Of a stretch of DNA of 64,000 bases, positions 13,487 to 58,138 are shown one piece after another. The translations under genes and the position numbers were made by a program. The notes beneath the pieces are model-generated. The model saw only the letters and a list, made by a program, of their open reading frames with translations, was not told the DNA's origin and did not search any database. Every line of letters begins with the position of its first letter. Position 1 is the first letter of the stretch. The DNA comes from Dryococelus australis (Eukaryota > Arthropoda > Insecta > Phasmatodea > Phasmatidae), in contig CM056995.1 in the NCBI GenBank assembly GCA_029891345.1, positions 82,771,895-82,835,894 on the forward strand, given 5' to 3'.

Positions 13487-13737
13487 GGAGTGAAGAGTTT
13501 TGAGCGGCTCTTAACAGCGTGGTCTTGAGAGCCGATATGGGTGATTGAAGGGAATATGGAGCAGCGCCGGAGTGGGGGGGGGGCGGGGGAGGCGGGAGAT
13601 CCCCGAGAAGGCCCGCCGACCAGCGGCATCATCCGACACGATTCCCACTTACGAAAATCCGGTTACCCGGCCGGGGATTGAGCCCAGTTCGCCTTGGTGA
13701 GAAGCGAGCGTTCTAATCGCTCAGCCACCGTGGCCCC
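13487..13737 (-). repeat. tRNA-derived SINE (family S)
   Basis: On the minus strand: a tRNA-like head with A-box (GTGGCTGAGCGATTAGAACG) and B-box (GGGCTCAATCCCCGG), then the body GATTTTCGTAAGTGGGAATC, GATGCCGCTGGTCGGCGGGC, CTCGGGGATCTCCCG and a tail of GAGCCGCTC and CTCTTCACTCC. A G-rich insertion (run of G at 13574-13582) lies mid-body. Nearly full length. Confidence 0.9.
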
Positions 13738-14381: not shown

Positions 14382-14813
14382 TATTGATTATTAAAATAGC
14401 ATTCCCGTAACTACGCTGTTGTATATTTAACGCCCATCATAAACTGGCCAACTTATACACATTTTACAATGGTAAGTCTTCAATGCCCCAACCTGTATTT
14501 ACTAAGTTCCTAGGTCCATACTTAATGAATGCAAACATTTCAAGCAAAAATCTGCCATGTTCTGTTTCCCAGAACATAAGCACCAACAAGCGCCGAGGGC
14601 CACACCCATGTACCTGGGGAAACCAAAAAATATTCACTGTTCAGGTTAAGCTCAGCTAAACATGGACGGAACCAGAACTGCAAAGTCCAAAGTAAATACG
14701 AAATAAGATTAAGGTGAAAAGAAGGTTTTAATATTACCGACCTAAGATTGCAAACAAGTTGTGAAAATATGTGAACACAAACAACCCAATGTGAAAATAT
14801 AAATAAACCCCGG
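14382..14813. other. No recognisable feature
   Basis: Unique-looking DNA between the transposase remnant and the gypsy fragment. It could contain decayed gag or protease-upstream sequence, but I could not identify any. Confidence 0.3.
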
Positions 14814-14873
14814 GCAAAAACTTGTTCCTCTGACCGGACTCCACAAGTCCTACTTGCTCAAATCAATAGTGAT

Positions 14874-15590
14874 ATGACTAGCTTCATCCGTATATCAATA
14901 ACTATTAATGATCAATCCCGCCGAGCTCTGATAGACACTGCCAAATCCCATAACTTTGTAAGGAGCAGCTTCGTCGACAGTGACAAAATAAACCCCATAA
15001 ACAGAGCAGTTCAACTGGCAACACGTAAACTTACGGGAAAAATCAAAGAGGGAGCTAGTATTATTGTACACATCCGTGATGTGGAAACGGTGTCAGTCGC
15101 CTTAGTGTCCGACGAAATAAGGGAGGAAGCTATCCTCGGAATACCCTGGCTGGCCGAGCAAAATATCGTAGACGAGACTGCCGCACGAATAATACACTTC
15201 GGGAGGAAGGAAAGAAGAACAGTGTATAACTTGGACCGCCGACCAGCTGGGGAAGCACCGGCCGTTGCGCTGGATGAACTGGACCATGCTGTACCCCCGG
15301 AGTTCCGCGAGGTGATGCAGCGTCTTCTCGACGAGCGTCGCGATCTGTTCACCATGGCAGATCTGCTGCATCGTACCATGGTGGCCGAGCATGCTATCCC
15401 GCTCCTCGACGAGACCCCGATTTTTCGAGTGTCCAAGGCGGTACTACCCACACCAACGTCAAATCATCCAGGAACAGATCAAAGAAATGCTGGGTAGAGG
15501 GAGTGATCGATCCGTCGGAGAGCACGTTTAAAGAGGCGAACACTCTCGGTCCGAAGAAGGGTGATACATGGAGGTTCTGTAGACGATGCA
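14874..15590 (+). pseudogene. Ty3/gypsy retrotransposon fragment: protease to start of reverse transcriptase
   Basis: The open frame at 14874-15497 begins in a retropepsin-like domain. The active-site region reads ALIDTAKSHNFV, so the glycine of the DTG triad is missing and a catalytically dead protease is expected; ILGIPWL follows at the position of the usual ILGMxWL motif. After a linker comes HAIPLLDETPIF, the start of the gypsy reverse-transcriptase region. A frameshift near 15440-15470 moves the rest (DPSES, LGPKKGDTWRF) to another frame, and homology ends near 15590. No LTRs, integrase or gag were found. Dead, truncated copy. Confidence 0.8.
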
Positions 15591-16673: not shown

Positions 16674-16717
<44 letters not shown>

Positions 16718-17362
16718 GCTCTCGCTCTGTGAAATTGAGACAATCACTCTTTCATTTATCTTCGGCTTCATGCAGACAGGTAATGCCAAAATGCGCGAAA
16801 TCATGTTAAGATAAAATCATGGCAATAGCTATTGGAAGTAATTTATTGTTCAAAAACTTCACAAATAATTATAACACTGCAAGAATAATTGCTAGCCCAT
16901 AAAATCATATTATAATATAATATGATATATATATTTATATTATATATATTACCCTCATGTTACAACGAAAGGACAAAAAATACGAAACTTTGTCAGACAT
17001 CCTTATATATGTTTACAAACACGTGTAACATAACTTATTTCGTTGACTATTAATAGTTGAAATTATTCCCTTGCAGTTAAAATGCGACCTGGTTTTGGCC
17101 CAGAACGCTACTATAAACTTATTCTAACACTGGAGCAATGTAAATAAATATGGCGCGTGGTCAGTGAGTGCTAGAGAGCACCAGCGAGTACAAAACTTCG
17201 TGCTCTCTCTCTCTCTCTCTGTGTCTCTCTATGTGCTCTCATTCTTTCGCGTTCTCTCCAACGAATAAAGACGACCAGCGAGCGTTCTCACTGACGTCAT
17301 GATGTGAGGTCGCCAGATCGAGAGCACGAGAGAGCGCTCTCAGGGCCAATTCAGACACGGCC
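16603..17362. mobile_element. PIF/Harbinger-like MITE (760 bp)
   Basis: The left end GACCGTGTCCTGATCT and the right end, read inverted, GGCCGTGTCTGAATTGGCCC match, and both ends are flanked by TAA (16600-16602 and 17363-17365). A TAA/TTA duplication and GGCC-type ends are characteristic of PIF/Harbinger elements. Next to the ends are GAGAGCAC/GTGCTCTC words in both orientations. A CT microsatellite (16677-16715), an AT-rich centre and a second CT run (17203-17220) lie inside. No transposase. Confidence 0.65.
16677..16715. repeat. (CT)n microsatellite
   Basis: About 19 uninterrupted CT units inside the Harbinger-like element, following its own GCTCTC subterminal words. Frames across it encode Leu-Ser or Arg-Glu repeats and are not genes. 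Confidence 0.95.

Positions 17363-19711: not shown

Positions 19712-19797
<86 letters not shown>
19712..19797. repeat. (TA)n microsatellite, about 43 units
   Basis: Long perfect TA repeat ending in TATACAT. The Tyr-Ile frame across it is an artefact. Confidence 0.97.
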
Positions 19798-22367
<2,570 letters not shown>

Positions 22368-23620: not shown

Positions 23621-23867
23621 TGAGTGAGTGAAGAGATTTGGGAGGCTCTTAACATCGAGGTCTTCAGAGCCGATGAAGGGGCTTTGAGGTGAGAATGGAG
23701 CATGAAAGGGCGCGGGGAACGGGATATCCTCGACAAAACTCGACGACCAGCGGCATCGTCCGGCACGATTCCCACATGCGAAAATACGGATGAGTGGCCC
23801 GAACGGGGATTGAACCCGGTTCGCCTTGGCGGGAGGAGAGCAGGCTAACCGCTCAGCCACCGCGACT
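23621..23867 (-). repeat. tRNA-derived SINE (family S), near full length
   Basis: On the minus strand: GCGGTGGCTGAGCGGTTAGC (A-box), AACCGGGTTCAATCCCCG (B-box), TTTTCGCATGTGGGAATCGT, GACGATGCCGCTGGTCG, body and a tail with CTCTTCACTCACTC. The tRNA-related part is well preserved and resembles a serine or leucine tRNA acceptor/D-arm more than other tRNAs. Best-kept promoter boxes of the family in the window. Confidence 0.9.
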
Positions 23868-24196
23868 TCATCAACTTGTGTCATTTGGCCAGTTCACAAC
23901 TTACATGCAGGCAGAGGAACAAGTCGCAATCAATGCTGCACGTGTGGTAACGGCACAGAGCACCTACGAATACAGATACGAAACAGCTACTTATACCATT
24001 AACTCCAGCTAAACACGCCAGCAAGCTAGTCTCGCTGGCCCACATGTTCGAACGCCATTCGCCAATCAGCGCTCGGCAACCCACTCCCCACTCCTCGCTA
24101 GCTGGCAGCCCAGCCAACAGGTAACTTGCAGTAGACGATCAGGAAACAAGCCTCGTTCACAGAGACTCGCGCAGCCTATCAGGAAACAGATATCGA

Positions 24197-24642: not shown

Positions 24643-24993
24643 GCCCGTACCACAGGGAACCACCATGACATTCCGTCTCTACGTAATCTACTCTGTGGTA
24701 ACGACGTCAGCTGCAACGAATCAAGTAGGCCGGTAAATGGATCCCAGTTACATAAATTAACAACCGCCAGCTGTTTTCTCGCCGCGTGTTCTAGGACTCC
24801 TTTCACCTCGGTCGTTGAACTCCTTTGGATTTCCAGTCCAGCTTCTTCCGGACAACTGTTAACGCTACGTAAAGGAAACGCATATAAAGGGATATAGTGG
24901 AAAGGGCGAATCCAATTCCAAAATTCTAGTTTATTTCCAGAGCTCTAACGGAGGTCACTTCACCCGCGGCGTGTGGTGAACTGTTACAACGTT

Positions 24994-25481
24994 TAGGCTG
25001 TTCACTGTAAAGTGAGCACTTTTGAAAGCACTGCTTAAGATCTACTTGTATACACGTTGTGTATTCCTCCGCCTCATGTAAAATTAATATTGCTATGGCC
25101 TTCATCACTTTGTTAATGCTTCGATCAAGTGAAACTGTGAAATTATTAAGAAAGTAAACACTTTACAAATCTGTTCGTTTTTACACTTCGATGCATTAAA
25201 AAACAGAAAGAGAAAGAATTAATTTTAAGTTATAGATTATTCACAGTAAAGTAAACAACTTTGAAAGCTTTCTCATTTGGAATAATATTCAAAAAATATA
25301 TTTGATTTTTACCTTAGGCATTAACTTCCGAGTGCCGTGGAATATACACACTTTGTTCATTACTTGCATGGCAATATGTATTTAAAAGTGTGATTAAAAG
25401 CTAAAAAGGGCTAAAATAAAAAAGTAACTAGAGCCTCAAAAATGCTCACTTTACCGTGAACCGCCTATATCACAATGGTTA
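24994..25481 (-). mobile_element. Family A MITE, inverted, with nested insertion and truncated
   Basis: Left end TAGGCTGTTCACTGTAAAGT GAGC and the usual interior (CTACTTGTATACACGTTGTG, CGCCTCATGTAAAATTAATA, CTTCGATGCATTAAAAAACA) run to AATTTTAAGT at 25230. A C2 element occupies 25233-25467. The host sequence resumes as TATCACAATGGTTACC, the expected continuation. It stops at about 25481, where mitochondrial rRNA-derived sequence begins. Confidence 0.8.
25233..25467 (-). mobile_element. Family C2 MITE nested in family A, 235 bp
   Basis: Starts TAGATTATTCACAGTAAAGT AAAC and ends ATGCTCACTTTACCGTGAAC CGCCTA. TA at 25231-25232 and 25468-25469 is the target duplication: removing the insert plus one TA restores the AAGTTATCACAATGG of intact A copies. 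The interior (AGGCATTAACTTCCGAGTGC, ATTACTTGCATGGCAATATG) is the inverse of the inner element at 37193-37428. Confidence 0.85.
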
Positions 25482-33326: not shown

Positions 33327-33888
<562 letters not shown>

Positions 33889-35991: not shown

Positions 35992-36836
35992 AGTTGTGCT
36001 GACTGCAGCAGAATGGCTAGGCACAGAGGAAGAGGGGCGTTGTAAGGGCAGTGCGCCCACGACGTGGAAGGGAAGAGGGCGGTTAAGGGTCGCGACCAGC
36101 CAACCCCTTCCCACCCCCCGCCTACACCCCGGCACTCCCGACAAGCCGGCACGAGTAGTGAGGCTAATTACAGGTCATTTAGACTAACACTAACTCCTTC
36201 ATTAGAAACAACGATCGGCGCTGTTCTCCCGGACCAGTTTAATTACGAACGCGCGGCGGGCCCGGCGATTCGTTGCCGGGTTGTGTAGCTGCGACCTGGC
36301 GACCCTATCGGTCGTGGACCTGCGAGCGGAGATCGATTGGTCGATCCCGCCGCGACCGTGTCACTATACCACCACCCTCGCCCCCCTTTCCCGTGCGGAG
36401 CACAAGCAAGTCCCCTGACTACATCACGTTTCTGCATCTACTGATGAACATTCTTCTAACATATACAGGAGAAAGATACATGAACGCATTTACTGCATTT
36501 TTCCTGATACCCCTAACTAAATTAAAATTCAAGACTAGGTGGCAGCGTTCTGGTAAAGAGCAAATTTAATACATATATTTGAGCAGTATCACTTGTATAT
36601 ATAGCCACCATGAAAATGTGATAGTCTATTTTTAGTCATCATTTAACTCCTAAGTTTATTGCAAAGATTTTGGTCTTTACCGCATACCTATTACCATACC
36701 TATTAGAAAATAAATATTTCATAAATGGTCTCAGACAAACAATATTATAAACTTTATTGCTATTATAAAAAACATATTTCTAGACATGTATGTTGTGATC
36801 ATGAATTTTGTCTGCCAACCCGAGGGTATTAGTTTA
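35992..36836. other. Gene-free; GC-rich block at about 36030-36420
   Basis: The block contains CGGTTAAGGGTCGCGACCAG, CGAACGCGCGGCGGGCCCGG and GATCCCGCCGCGACCGTG with many CG dinucleotides, then falls back to AT-rich DNA. Overlapping frames on both strands are uninformative. It may be a CpG-rich regulatory region. Confidence 0.3.
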
Positions 36837-36899
36837 AAGGCTGTTCACGTTAAAGTGAGCACTTTTGAAATCAACCTTAGGGAAAAGCCACTGCCCCTA

Positions 36900-37136
36900 T
36901 AGGCTGTTTCTCAGTAAAGTGAGCACTTTTTAAGGCCCTTCTAAATTTTTACTTTCACCCAATTTCTATCTTCCTGCTGCTTTTTAATATAGATATTGCA
37001 ATGTGGTCCATAAACACAGTATGTATATTTCACCCTCTCAAAAGTTAACGCCTAAGGCTGCAATAAGATATATTTATTAGTGGTTAATGCCTGTTGGGAG
37101 GGCCTTAAAAAGTGCTCACTTTACGTGAATAGCATA
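36900..37136 (+). mobile_element. Family C MITE, nested, 237 bp
   Basis: TAGGCTGTTTCTCAGTAAAG TGAGCAC at the left, GTGCTCACTTTACGTGAATA GCA at the right, TA at 36898-36899 and 37137-37138. The interior shares ATTGCAATGTGGTCCATAAA, CAAAAGTTAACGCCTAAGGC and TTAGTGGTTAATGCC with 34577 and 60626. Confidence 0.92.
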
Positions 37137-37192
37137 TACCTGCATACATTTTAACGGGCGCCCTCAGTGACATGCGCCCAGTAAAGTTGGTA

Positions 37193-37428
37193 TAGACTGT
37201 TCACGATAAAGTGAGCACTTTTGGGGGCCTAGTTGCTTTTTCCTCTCCGTTATGTTTTATCCTTTAAACACCTTTTTAGTTAAAAATTGCCAAGTAAGTA
37301 ATAAAGGCAGTGTGTATATTCTACAGCACCCTAAAGTTAATGTCTAAGGCTAAAATAAAATATAATTATTGACCATTGTTCCAAACGAAAAGGCTTTCAA
37401 AAGTTCGCACTTAAACGTGAATAGCCTG
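37193..37428 (+). mobile_element. Family C2 MITE, nested, 236 bp
   Basis: TAGACTGTTCACGATAAAGT GAGCAC at the left, AAGTTCGCACTTAAACGTGA ATAGCCTG at the right, TA at 37191-37192 and 37429-37430. The interior (AAAATTGCCAAGTAAGTAAT, AAGTTAATGTCTAAGGCTAA) is the inverse of 25233-25467 and differs from family C proper. Confidence 0.92.
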
Positions 37429-37947
37429 TAACGATGGGTGGAAAATAGTTCTATACCTGAACGTCGAATAAAATGTGTTTGGTAACCACTTGTGATAACT
37501 TAAATTACTTCTTTAATTTTCTGTTTTTGTTTATGCATCGACGTGTAAAAATGAGAATATTTGTAAAATATTTACTTTTACAATAATTTCGCAGTTTCGC
37601 TTGACCGACGCATGAATAAAGTGACGAGGCCCATGGCAATGTTAATTTTACGTAAGGCGGAAGAATACACAGCGTGCACACAAGTAGATCTTAAACTTCA
37701 AAAGTGCTCATTTAACCGTGAGTAGCCTATTGATATATTGTTCGCTCGCCAAGTGCCCCAGCGGACATGGTTGTGTTTTGCAAGTCGGCTTTGTTGTGAC
37801 GAGACGTCTTGTTTACTGTTTGCACGTGCGTTCTAGTTTACCGCTAATTCTAGGGAACCGTGTTATCGCGGTTGTACAGTTTTCTCACCTTTATATAACT
37901 CATATAAACTCATCCTTGTGGAATGCGGCTGCCGTGGATTCTGGCGG

Positions 37948-41536: not shown

Positions 41537-41788
41537 AGTAAGTGAAGAGATTTGGGCGGCTCTTAACGTCGGGGTCTTGAGAGCCGATGAGGGTGAAGTG
41601 AGGTAGGTATGGAGCGGCGCCGGAATTAAATGCCGGTGGAAACGGGAGATCTCCGAGAAAACCCGCCAGTCAGCTGCATCGTCCGGCACGATTTCCACAT
41701 GTGAAACTCCGGGGGCGACCCCATTGGGAATCGAACCCGGTTCGCTTTGGTGAGAGGCGAGTAGTCTAACCACTACGCCACCCTGGCT
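41537..41788 (-). repeat. tRNA-derived SINE (family S)
   Basis: On the minus strand: GGGTGGCGTAGTGGTTAGAC (A-box), CCGGGTTCGATTCCCAATGG (B-box), GAGTTTCACATGTGGAAATC, GATGCAGCTGACTGGCGGGT, CTCGGAGATCTCCCG, and the tail with TCTTCACTTACTCC. Full set of modules. Confidence 0.92.
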
Positions 41789-43007
41789 TCTTTTTTGAAG
41801 AATATTAGAGCAACATACAGTAAATGAAAATCACAGGCGTCACAACCGTTAGTTGTGTGTAACGTAGCAATGAGTACTATATTCTACAACATTTTGCTCT
41901 TTCCGTACGTTTAGGATGAGCAAAATTACTAGAAAATGCATTGTTTAAAGTGAAAATCAGTAACAAATGTCTGGGTGTTCTATTTCCGTGATGTTTCCTT
42001 GGCACACCACGTGGATTTTAAAACACCGTAAGTCAAGAAAGAAAAGATACTGTACAATCCATTTAAAATACTGCCTCGCGATTAATAGAATGAAGGCGAA
42101 GGATGTTGGGGGTAACCCGAGGTGCTGAAACATGAGAAGTGTGGCGAACCACTCCACTGCTGGATTCTGCGGGCGGTCAACTGTAGATGCGTGCGGAATG
42201 GAATGGAACAGCATCGGAACTTCGAAGCAATAGCGTCAGTCTTCACTCGTAGGCCAGCGGATTCGCCTCCACAACTGGTAGCTCCAGGATATCCCGCCGA
42301 GTGCTGCTCACCTACGTCCGAGGGAAATTTTGGGAGAGGGGGAGGGAGTGGCTACTCGACGCATTTCTCCCCACCTTCACCCGCGATGTAGAGCTCCTTA
42401 TGTCGGCGCAAAAGAGCGAAGATGGAGTAGGTGCCATGACTGAGGTGCCCGGATTTCTTGCGCCCTCGACTGGAAGCTTAAGGACCCTGCCTGAAGTCAC
42501 TGCTGTCGATATTGCTGTGCGGGTAGTCAGGCTGCCGGCGCAGGAACATGGATGGCAGTTCCACCTCAAGGACGCATCTGCCTTTAACATGCTGGCCCAA
42601 AGCTCCGCCACCTCTCTACTAGATTCTTCACTCCAATATTAAACAGCATGGACTCCACTCCTGCTATCTCCTTTAGCATTTTCACTAGTGCTCCCACAAG
42701 TTTAACTCCTTTTCTGTCGATATGGGTTTTACCGTGTCCACGTGTTTACGTGTCTACCCCTTCTTAATGTAGCTTTAACTACACTACACTTACGGAGGTA
42801 GGCATGGCTCCAAAGTGATTGCCATGCCTACCCATTCCCTCTAGACCGCAATGTCCACCTCCTTTGTATTCAATTCCCTTTCCTATAGGCATAAGGGGCT
42901 AAGCCCTGAGATGCAATTAAAACCCGACCCTACCTCCGGATTTACACTTAACACTTAGAATAAGGTAGTTTAGACAACAAAAGCTGTTTAGAAATGAAAA
43001 TGAGGTA
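41789..43007. other. Unassigned; 113-codon frame at 42301-42642
   Basis: The frame (MLLTYVRGKFWERGREWLL and so on) lies in a GC-richer block (42110-42640) and is protein-like in composition, but I recognise no domain. A short hairpin, TAGGCATGGC pairing with GCCATGCCTA, lies at 42801-42832. The block could be part of an unrecognised retroelement. Confidence 0.25.

Positions 43008-49735: not shown

Positions 49736-49738
<3 letters not shown>
48767..49738. other. No recognisable gene
   Basis: AT-rich unique-looking DNA. Short frames at 49358-49552 and on the opposite strand have no recognised domain. Confidence 0.35.

Positions 49739-49801
<63 letters not shown>
49722..49801. repeat. (CA)n and (TA)n microsatellite
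   Basis: A short CA run (49722-49734), CAAGCA, then about 31 perfect TA units up to 49801. Confidence 0.96.
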
Positions 49802-51479: not shown

Positions 51480-51637
51480 GAGTTAAGAGATTTGGGCGGC
51501 TCTTAACGAGGTCTTGAGAGCCGATGAGGGTGAAATGAAGTGAGAATGAAACAGCACCGGAATGCACGGGCGGGGAAAACGGAAGATCCCCGAGAAAACT
51601 CGATGACTAGCGCCATCCTCCAGCACGATTTCCACAC
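51480..51637 (-). repeat. SINE (family S), body part, split by transposon
   Basis: Reads inverted CGATTTCCACA-side body: GTGGAAATCGTGCTGGAGGA TGGCGC, TCGAGTTTTCTCGGGGATCT and CGGCTCTCAAGACCTCGTTA with tail AAATCTCTTAAC. The tRNA-like head is on the other side of the element at 51638-52358. Confidence 0.85.
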
Positions 51638-52358
51638 TGTTAAAAAAGTGTTACGGAAAAGTGCTGGTAAACATTTATCCAGAAGTGTCCGTAAACTCTC
51701 TGTAAAATTACGGACACGCTGATTTAGAAACGGACCTTCCGTAAATTGCACGGAACCTCTCCGTTAATTTCCAAGTTAGTTTTCTGTACTTTCCGTTCAA
51801 AATAAAAAGAGATAATGAAAATGTCTTTAATTTTCGTTATGTCAGTGTTCTACCGTGTATAAAAAATGATATTAAAAAGTTAAAATATTTTGTACTTAAG
51901 CGAGGTTTGAACTCGAGTCAAAAAACTACCACTTCACGATTCTGACCATTCATCCACAACTCTCACTCGCAAGTAATGGTATAATTTTTTGTATTTATAC
52001 TCAAAAGGCAGAACCAAAAAATTTTGTTTCTTTTAAATTTAGTGTATTTTTAGTGTTGCCAAATGTTACAGACGCCTGATGCTGTTTTTTAATGTTTGAA
52101 AGAATAGGTCATAGTCGTGTGGAAAACCTTAAATGCCGCAGAAACGATAATTTTCTTGTTACAGTGGCGAAGATAGCTTCGTGTGGAATCGCCATTGTTC
52201 GTCTCCGTAACTCGAAGCCAAAGGGAATAACGGAGACTTTCCGTATTTTGTATTTACGGACTTGACTCCGTTTTTCGTCATTACGGATTGCCTTTCCGTA
52301 TATACACTGTACATTTCCGTAAAACATTCCGTAAATAGACAGAAATTTTTTATAGTGT
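51638..52358. mobile_element. CACTA-like element with TTACGGA subterminal repeats, inserted in a SINE
   Basis: Ends CACTGTTAAAAAAGTGTTAC and, inverted from the right, CACTATAAAAAATTTCTGTC. At least eight TCCGTAA/TTACGGA-type words per side crowd the outer 150 bp in both orientations, none in the centre. CAC-type ends with dense subterminal repeats are the signature of CMC/EnSpm (CACTA) elements. The centre (51905-51965) has an inverted tRNA-like piece with GAGTTCAAACCTCGC as B-box. No transposase. Target duplication ambiguous (2-3 bp). Confidence 0.65.
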
Positions 52359-52416: not shown

Positions 52417-54706
52417 TAAAGAGAAAATCAATGTATGAGTGAAATGAGAAATACAAGAAATGCAAGTAAATGTATACCGCATATACTATACATTTGATTG
52501 CGACAGCGTGACTGCGGAAGCAAAATTATCACGAAATGACAATGTATATTAATTTGTATTACTTTAGTGGGTTTTGAGCTAGCTATTAGTTCCTTTCTGG
52601 CTAATAAGGATCGCATACACTTCTGGCAGGCAGGACGTAACCAGCTCGATAGTGGCTAGAGTCGAGCAAGAGTTCCTATGATTGCACAAATACGGCGAAT
52701 TTCATCACACTCATGACATTGTTTAACGTCTGTGTAATATAGAAGACTACAATCGGAGACCACCGACGACTAACAGGAAAAGCTAGGCAAGTGTCTATAA
52801 CCCAACAATAAATAAAGTTAACCGCTAAGCAACAGTCATTTACGTACTACAGGCAACAGCGGAAACACTCAAATGCACGATAATTAAAACTTTCAAAATT
52901 CTGAATCTGAATACTATAAAAAATAAACAATAGCCGTTGTTATATGAAAACTCTAGAATGCGGAGTCCTCACAGTGGGCACAGATCGAGTTAAGGAAAAG
53001 GAAAGGGAACGAGGAATGTTCTCGAGTTCGCCACCATTTACGTTACGATATTAACAATAATGGCGTGGTACATTTACTACAAGTGTCTAATGATTTATAG
53101 TGCTATCGTTACTTCAATAGGCTTTTGCCATTTCAGTCTACACATTTCCACTGGTTGATACGACTTTCGACTTAACAGTACAAACCTCTGAGATTCTTGG
53201 GTGGACGGTAACCTCGCTAAAGCAGTGTTTGCACACTCGCAAGCAGATTCTAGTAGTTTTACTACATATGAGAAACAAACTGTCATACGAGGATGTCAAG
53301 AACTTCCATACAAAACTTAACCTACAAGCTAACTGTCCTCTGAATGGAATTAATTCATAGGATCTTTAATTTATATTTTAAAAAATCCAAATCCAAACAT
53401 AATGACAATATTCGGACTCTGATCTCTCCGTAAAACGATCCAGCCTAAAAAAAATTGTCTAAATATTGTTATTTACAATGCGAATAGAACTCTAACTGCG
53501 CTTATTTATAAAAATTATAATAATTTGATTTTTGAAAGTTTTTTTAACTGATGTGTTATTGCTCACTCAAAAACAACATGTTTTTTTTACCATGTACAAA
53601 CCCTTAAACAAAAAAGAAGACTTTTTTTTTTTGCCCGGCGTTGCACCGAGTCTTGTAATGAAAATTAAGACCCAAGAATGTCTTGTAAGGTATCACGAGC
53701 AAGTAATTCCTTAATATAGACTGACATCCATATGTGATAACGGACTCGAAATAAGGCAGTTTGAAATAAAAACCGTTACATCAAAGGGAAGGTTTCTTGT
53801 AAGATGGCTACTGAGAGTCCTTAAAGTATGAATGAAGTACAAGCCCCAAAGGCTTGAGGCTGCCAAAAACTAAACACTCGGGTGGGGAGTTTCTTGTATT
53901 ATTAAAGGAAGACAGAGCTGCGAAAACTGTTAAAACTGCAAAAGAGCCAACCGAATTCAGAACCGAAGTGGGGAAACATCTACGATAGACTAGAAACCAA
54001 CGAAACATCGTGACGATTTTTTATTGGCTACGTGAGTACCATTGAAGATCTGAAAATTAAAAGAAGTGTTAGCCATATGTTTGTCTAAGATGCTTCAATA
54101 GGAACACTAGTCCGTTCGTCCAAAAACTTTGTTAAGCACATACTAGTAATAATTCGTTCTCTGTTCTGTTACGACCATCGGTGAACAAGGAATTCGGCTC
54201 TTCTATCTGAAAGCAAACTTACAATTAAACGCACCCTATTTGAAATTACGAAAAAAAAAAAAAAAAATTCGCGTGTGTTATCGAGAGTTCCAAGCACACT
54301 GAAGTAACAAAAAATTAGACTAAGAAGTCACGAGAGAGAAAAATCTTCCAAAATCAATACGGTTGAAAAAAAAAAAACCATCCAACGTTTCAAACATTCG
54401 AAACATTTTTGTCAGTAAGAGCTCGATGACCAAGTAGTGTGTGAAATGACAATGCATTATCTGCATTTATTAAAATATAACGCACGGACGTCCGTCGAAA
54501 AGCAAATGTTCACGATGTTGTTGGTAAAGTTTATAAACCAGAGTGATTAAATTACGCACTGAATAAAAATATTGATCATTAAAAGTGACATTTTATTTTT
54601 CCTAATGTCTATCGGTTCACAAAGTCCTTAAATAGAATATGGGAAAGAATGTCGCTGTGCACTCAATAGTGGCTGGAAGTCAGGTAAGTAACCGTAGATA
54701 CTAGTA
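52417..54706. other. No recognisable gene
   Basis: AT-rich, unique-looking DNA with poly-A and poly-T runs (for example 54249-54266). No open frame with a domain, no terminal repeats. Confidence 0.4.
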
Positions 54707-57938: not shown

Positions 57939-58138
57939 TGGAGTGGAGAGATTGGGAGTCTTGGGAACCGATGATGGTGAAACGAGGTCGAAACGGAGCA
58001 TTGTCGGAATGTAAGGGCAGGGGGAAACGGAATATCCCCGAGAAAACCCGCCCACCAGCGATATCGTCCGGTACGATCCCCACGAACGAAAATCCGTGAG
58101 TGAGCCCGCCGGTAATCGAACCCGGATCGCCTTGGTGG
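57939..58138 (-). repeat. tRNA-derived SINE (family S), 5' truncated
   Basis: Inverted: CCACCAAGGCGATCCGGGTT CGATTACCGGC (B-box), ACTCACGGATTTTCGTTCGT, GATATCGCTGGTGGGCGGGT, CTCGGGGATATTCCG and tail TCTCTCCACTCC. The A-box half of the head is missing. Confidence 0.85.

Follow-up and report, generated by a model that had tools for sequence, protein, structure and literature searches.

Nested MITEs and unevenly filled TA target sites in the genome of Dryococelus australis

The window analysed here, a stretch of 64,000 bases of the Dryococelus australis genome, holds a copy of the MITE family A into which two shorter relatives, C and C2, have been inserted. The best explanation, which we consider very probable, is recurrent insertion at hot TA dinucleotides, with a single A copy struck once at each of two hot sites, in place. 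In this explanation, A, C and C2 would be non-autonomous elements with a common outer terminal inverted repeat (TIR), which insert at TA and duplicate it and which may be mobilised in trans, as if by a transposase of putative Tc1/mariner type. The machinery would prefer a weak extended context around the TA, and A would carry well-contexted TAs, above all TTGG-TA-ACGATGG, together with CCCC-TA-CCTG in its TA-bearing subfamilies. With tens of thousands of A targets available, A, C and C2 would each have landed there many times, with C and C2 arriving in both orientations at TTGG-TA-ACGATGG. The class of element is already known, and the useful result is a quantified natural hotspot. Tens of thousands of near-identical empty targets with countable fills allow the choice of targets by a TA transposon to be measured in nature, down to the single site.

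Anatomy and class of the nested elements

Host A lies on the plus strand and begins at 36837, directly behind a TA (36835-36836) that is the left copy of its target duplication. Its left part (36837-36899), recognised by comparison with A copies of the window and the genome, opens with a TIR starting AAGGCTGTTCACGTTAAAGTGAGCACTTTTG and ends in the TA of the first insertion site, here called the C site (host context CCCC-TA-CCTG). This site holds C (36900-37136, plus strand), delimited with solo C copies and flanked by TA at 36898-36899 and 37137-37138. A middle stretch of A, 56 bp long (37137-37192, plus strand), separates C from C2 (37193-37428, plus strand), which was delimited with solo C2 copies, occupies the C2 site (host context TTGG-TA-ACGATGG) and is flanked by TA at 37191-37192 and 37429-37430. 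The right part of A follows with the right TIR (37429-37729, plus strand), and its outer right target duplication is degenerate, with TT at 37730-37731. A preliminary description had ended the element at 37726; its start at 36837 stands, and we place the right end at 37729 since CAGCCTA followed by TA closes many other A copies.

The boundaries first given for C and C2 are exact, and excision of each insert with one TA kept restores the host sequence, giving GCCACTGCCCC-TA-CCTGCATACATT (CCCC-TA-CCTGCAT) at the C site and GTAAAGTTGG-TA-ACGATGGGTGGA (TTGG-TA-ACGATGG) at the C2 site. The nest had also been called three-layered. Three elements are indeed nested, but in two layers, with C and C2 each lying directly in A and neither inside the other. 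The proposed duplication of TA was borne out: TA flanks both inserts, and outside A it is found on both sides of 31 of the 38 solo C2 copies with placed ends.

An empty A measures about 420 bp (the present host 416 bp without its inserts), C 237 bp and C2 236 bp, and the A, C and C2 modules together make up 5,406 of the 64,000 bases of the window. The TIR core TAAAGTGAGCACTTTT has 36 matches in the window with at most three mismatches, against 1.38 expected, so that chance is no explanation. Over their first 31 nt, compared without gaps, the terminal inverted repeats match at 25 positions in A, 24 in C2 and 14 in C. The end of C is shifted, and its inner arms (36914-36944 and 37094-37124) are 94% complementary over 31 nt. 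The view that the elements share a terminal repeat and differ in their interiors was nearly right, with C and C2 being about 65% alike over some 228 bp and C also resembling some 70-100 bp at one end of A. No stop-to-stop frame of at least 130 aa overlaps 36837-37729, indicating that the nest has no transposase gene of its own, and Rfam and tRNA scans of the window found nothing.

The elements thus display the features of TA-inserting (Tc1/mariner-type) MITEs, namely TA duplication, TIRs, short and homogeneous copies in high number and the lack of a transposase gene of their own. The terminal motif of plant Stowaway MITEs is CTCCCTCC, whereas the ends of the present elements begin TAGGCTGTT or AAGGCTGTT. 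The 3-bp duplication of PIF/Harbinger (Tourist) elements (e.g. TTA/TAA) is likewise absent, the flanks of both nest inserts sharing TA only. Plant MITEs nested in MITEs were reportedly read for target preference by Jiang and Wessler in 2001 (Plant Cell 13:2553), to judge from the title. The likeness to that system is the nesting of MITE in MITE, and here filled and empty counts are available at four TAs.

Filled and empty sites in the window and the genome

Ten other A copies of the window were aligned. Nine of them extend to the C2 site, which is empty in every one, while the tenth (24988-25225, minus strand) stops short of it. A TA at the C site is present in three of the ten, at 54706, 59622 and 9240 (the last with a different right flank), and the remaining copies have TG, TT or a missing stretch. 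The claim that the restored host strings recur in other A copies holds at the C2 site; for the C-site string CCCCTACCTGCAT it fails among the ten aligned copies but is true genome-wide, where the string is common. The tenth copy, a right part of A whose upstream part is short, hosts a second nested C2 (25233-25467, minus strand; alignment 25238-25467 plus 5 bp at one end) at a third TA of A (GTGA-TA-ACTT).

Both sites are also empty in all eight sampled siblings from the A subfamily of the nest host. Because these siblings are empty, the data support C and C2 as insertions into A and not as modules of it. Among the best 39 C2 matches besides the nest, 38 were fetched (L061-L098; aligned lengths 228-237 bp). 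None of these is nested in A, one free copy (L075) adjoining an A copy, and the 39th match (L014) does lie in A.

The whole nest served as query in a search of the genome (3,415,067,245 bases in 646 contigs), which returned A copies carrying either C2 or C alone, or neither of them, at identical positions and with differing outer flanks. Filled and empty sites were counted genome-wide with junction and empty patterns at no more than one mismatch, and reversed-pattern controls gave 0 or 1 match in each case. The C2 site is filled in 909 places and empty in 41,752 (2.1%), and the C site is filled in 186 and empty in 17,813 (1.0%, a lower bound, with TG alleles counted as empty). The third TA is filled in 54 places and empty in 28,506 (0.19%), and a cold TA (CATGAA-TA-AAGTGA) in 5 and 41,674 (0.012%), all filled counts being ones that could include amplified composites. 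The C2 site and the cold TA, about 190 bp apart within one element, therefore differ 178-fold in filling, as counted with patterns of 22 to 24 bases and hence of slightly unequal stringency. The four TAs were not random choices: the third was taken for the insertion found there in the window, and the cold one was chosen before counting for its low motif score and conserved flank.

These counts bear on the idea that C and C2 are internal modules lost from most A copies, to which we assign next to no probability. Recurrence at identical sites is the only point in its favour, whereas the C2 site is empty in tens of thousands of places, TA is duplicated at filled sites, insert types and orientations are mixed and C2 occurs free of A. 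For the present copy the idea is already refuted.

Tc1/mariner elements (Hsmar1, Mos1, Himar1, Sleeping Beauty) resemble the present ones in the TA target and its duplication. In the available portion of PMC3544897, their choice of target is held, TA aside, to be essentially random apart from some biased cases, and biased TA use is described with a Mos1 hotspot in the cat gene and no major hotspot for Hsmar1. In the present natural element, in contrast, one TA is filled about 180 times as often as another. Bari elements also display nested insertions, with no obvious positional preference according to the text available from PMC4877112, and the corresponding part of PMC2997013 is without nested-site analysis.

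The sequences that land at each site were classified in samples. At the C2 site, 20 of 100 listed places were picked (exact matches on the first twelve contigs; 909 places in total) and 19 were classified, L118 being left out with too short a slice. They held C in the same orientation as the host in five cases and in the opposite one in three, C2 likewise in four and one, and inverted A-type inserts in six, among which L102 has the right-end module only. The junction pattern is independent of the orientation of C or C2. Six further listed places outside the pick (L003, L004, L009, L035, L040 and L054) all contain C2 in host orientation, which brings C2 to 10 to 1 in favour of that orientation, not 4 to 1, among the listed places examined. 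A bias of this kind would agree with an orientation preference or with partial amplification of composites.

At the C site, 20 of 100 listed places were picked (186 in total). Fifteen contained an inverted A (that of L128 rearranged), one an A in the same orientation, three a C2 in the same orientation and one an unresolved insert. Known A+C copies in the list (L017, L022 and others) lie outside the pick, so the absence of C from the 20 means little. The orientation counts of A are biased by the pattern, since an A in host orientation starts AAGGCTG, which costs one mismatch to the junction pattern. Where right junctions could be placed, the sequence returns to that of the host, and many of these junctions have a TA or its decayed form.

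Other TAs of A have been struck too, in L013, in L051 and at 25233-25467 of the window. In L013, C2 has entered a TA that lies some ten bases upstream from the C2 site. An assignment of L051 as C at the C2 site was rejected, the insert lying at a different TA further into A. These additional TAs weigh against gene conversion among A copies as the means by which filled sites reached unrelated hosts. Such conversion, too, would leave an insert at exactly the same position in scattered host lineages, but it cannot yield opposite orientations or different insert families at one TA, and we hold it to be highly improbable.

If hits at the two sites are independent, both would be filled in about 2.2 per 10,000 A copies, or some nine among 41,752, so that a nest such as the present one is expected in the genome. 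One clear further double nest is L007, where C and C2 occupy both sites and the A flanks are decayed. Inserts at both sites are also present in L011, in which a whole inverted A lies in the C2 site of another A that has C at its C site, and in L035. The latter is a palindromic derivative (1190-1975), made up of an A left end, an inverted C at the C site, the middle, C2 at the C2 site and a reversed A left end. A different rearrangement is seen in L014 (1435-2045), which consists of A with one C2 whose left junction is that of the C site and whose right junction is that of the C2 site, the 56-bp middle being absent, as if it had been deleted through recombination between two nested TIRs.

Lineages and divergence of hosts and inserts

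The preliminary description had reasoned that the same inserts at the same positions in other A copies would make them internal parts of one composite element. Such copies do exist, but the reasoning fails, because the kind of insert, the orientation in which C and C2 lie and the host lineage differ from copy to copy. Copies that share an insert at one site need not go back to one ancestral event. The alternative holds that one A copy received C and another C2, and that these composites then moved as units, the recurrences being their descendants. We regard this as unlikely, and the trees of hosts and inserts speak to it on both sides.

The A tree was built from 56 copies and extended to 68, with the duplicates L031, L032, L034 and L043 left out of the trees. 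The nest host falls in a clade with five empty copies (support 100/98) and in a wider one with eight (100/92). Hosts with a filled C2 site (27, including L013 with its C2 at the neighbouring TA) are scattered over the A lineages: the filled label requires 17 changes against a shuffled mean of 20.4, with 43 of 500 shuffles as low, and at least six changes are forced by the starred branches. Seven of the 19 newly classified loci had too little host sequence for this tree. Scatter of this kind, together with the empty siblings of the nest host, speaks against composites. In their favour, hosts carrying C2 (L013 again included) show slight clustering, with 31 of 500 shuffles reaching a value as low, and many loci have the same inserts at the same positions between differing outer flanks.

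In the C2 tree, which has the form of a star, copies in A and solo copies are mixed (14 changes against a shuffled mean of 16.3). It contains the C2 of the nest twice (W_37193 and L001), labels L075 as being in A because it abuts one and, having little resolution, is by itself compatible with one composite. A distinct C2 lineage is common to L005 and L012, which counts against purely separate insertions. The first C tree placed seven A+C copies together, which, like the 10 to 1 orientation of C2 among the listed places classified, favours movement as units. In a fuller C tree, C copies lodged at the C site are intermixed with those lodged at the C2 site, the latter in both orientations, in a group of 13 (90/88), and a single A+C composite lineage was dropped once the C2-site copies had joined the same group. 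The C of the nest itself falls outside this group, among solo C copies. In this tree L007, L051 and L108 are labelled as solo although they lie in A, and L108 belongs to the group of 13.

Host and inserts are thus not inherited together as an A+C+C2 unit would be, given the empty siblings and the mixed insert types. The C2 site accepts C, C2 or A, with C and C2 in both orientations, and recurrent insertion agrees best with this. Some other A+C2 or A+C copies may have been partly amplified as composites.

Divergence was compared with the relative ages that nesting implies. Between the host and its subfamily consensus, 22 of 410 sites differ, and the eight empty siblings diverge by 4.3 to 7.7%. 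Compared with the C consensus, the C of the nest has 12 differences in 229 sites, a level not different from that of the host (p = 1), whereas its C2 differs from the C2 consensus at 33 of 235, above the host (p = 2e-4), in a comparison set made up largely of best matches to the nest's C2. Lying inside the host, C2 landed after it, and yet it is the more diverged of the two, so divergence does not date insertions. The relative ages put forward earlier are accordingly sound as far as A precedes C and C2, which follows from the nesting, and are contradicted by C2 if taken as a simple clock. More generally, how far a nested copy has diverged need not tell when it was inserted. Probably the C2 of the nest was already decayed when it moved, or came from an unsampled lineage; the need for a decayed copy to have moved is a point against the favoured explanation. 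A minor C2 subfamily was rejected as its source, with at most seven of the 33 differences shared among 65 copies compared.

Target context and derivatives of nesting

The preference for relatives proposed in the preliminary description is borne out as one for particular TAs inside A, and this agrees with a symmetrised target motif trained on insertion targets outside A. Trained on 70 targets, the motif places the C and C2 sites at ranks 1 and 2 among 32 TAs. After removal of four targets that resemble the hot sites, the remaining 66 put the nest sites at ranks 1 and 3 among 34 TAs and the third TA at rank 12. Motifs from subsets agree in part, placing the nest sites at 1 and 2 (C only), 6 and 3 (C2 only) and 7 and 8 (A only). 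Overall the motif is a weak one, with a mean percentile of 0.77 on leave-one-out testing, and the order of its top two sites is opposite to their fill rates. We have moderate confidence that local target context is the main cause of the hot TAs. Sequence context, rather than later amplification or chromatin, would then set the rates of the individual TAs.

The relatedness of the inserts to their host raises another explanation, in which the TIR-like DNA of A attracts the transposase and local TIR-like motifs tether it beside the hot TAs. The sequence GTAAAGT, present in the flank of the C2 site and also in the TIR, agrees with this. The best TIR-core match near the hot sites is 7, however, equal to that of the third TA and reached by 28% of 1,500 background TAs, and the cold TA of A, at a distance of about 190 bp, is filled about 180 times less often. 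We therefore find such targeting very unlikely. The flanks of 56 solo insertions displayed no TIR-core enrichment (mean 6.04 vs 6.13), and tethering by motifs beside the hot sites was rejected for this lack of enrichment.

A tandem array of 117-bp units is located at C5:224595342-224599617, each unit extending between the TIR of A and that of a C2 inserted at the hot site, with at least 37 left-end matches among those listed. The array terminates in its own A+C2 copy (L012). It seems that this A+C2 nest furnished the direct repeats of the array through the nested TIR, and the array would have arisen by unequal exchange or slippage. MITE-derived satellites and nested insertions are reviewed in PMC12628747, and in the portion of that review available, as here, tandem arrays consist of MITE parts; the unit of the present array spans from the host TIR to the TIR of the nested C2. 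A more speculative and doubtful proposal is that A acts as a landing pad for its clan, its two hot TAs absorbing A itself and its relatives at rates some 5 to 180 times those of two other TAs in the element, and that nesting would be a sink which diverts insertions and seeds satellites.

The window also contains another dispersed family (13575-13737, 23702-23869, 41625-41790, 51562-51649 and 58010-58097), which by eye we take to be SINE-like. Some of its copies have a tRNA-like stretch, GGGATTGAACCCGGTTCGCC, in which ARAGORN calls no tRNA. A 240-aa stop-to-stop frame at 14775-15497 resembles, by eye, a fragment of a retroelement protease/pol. Long (TA)n and (CT)n runs are found at about 19712-19797, 33786-33886, 49737-49800, 16676-16720 and 20284-20380.
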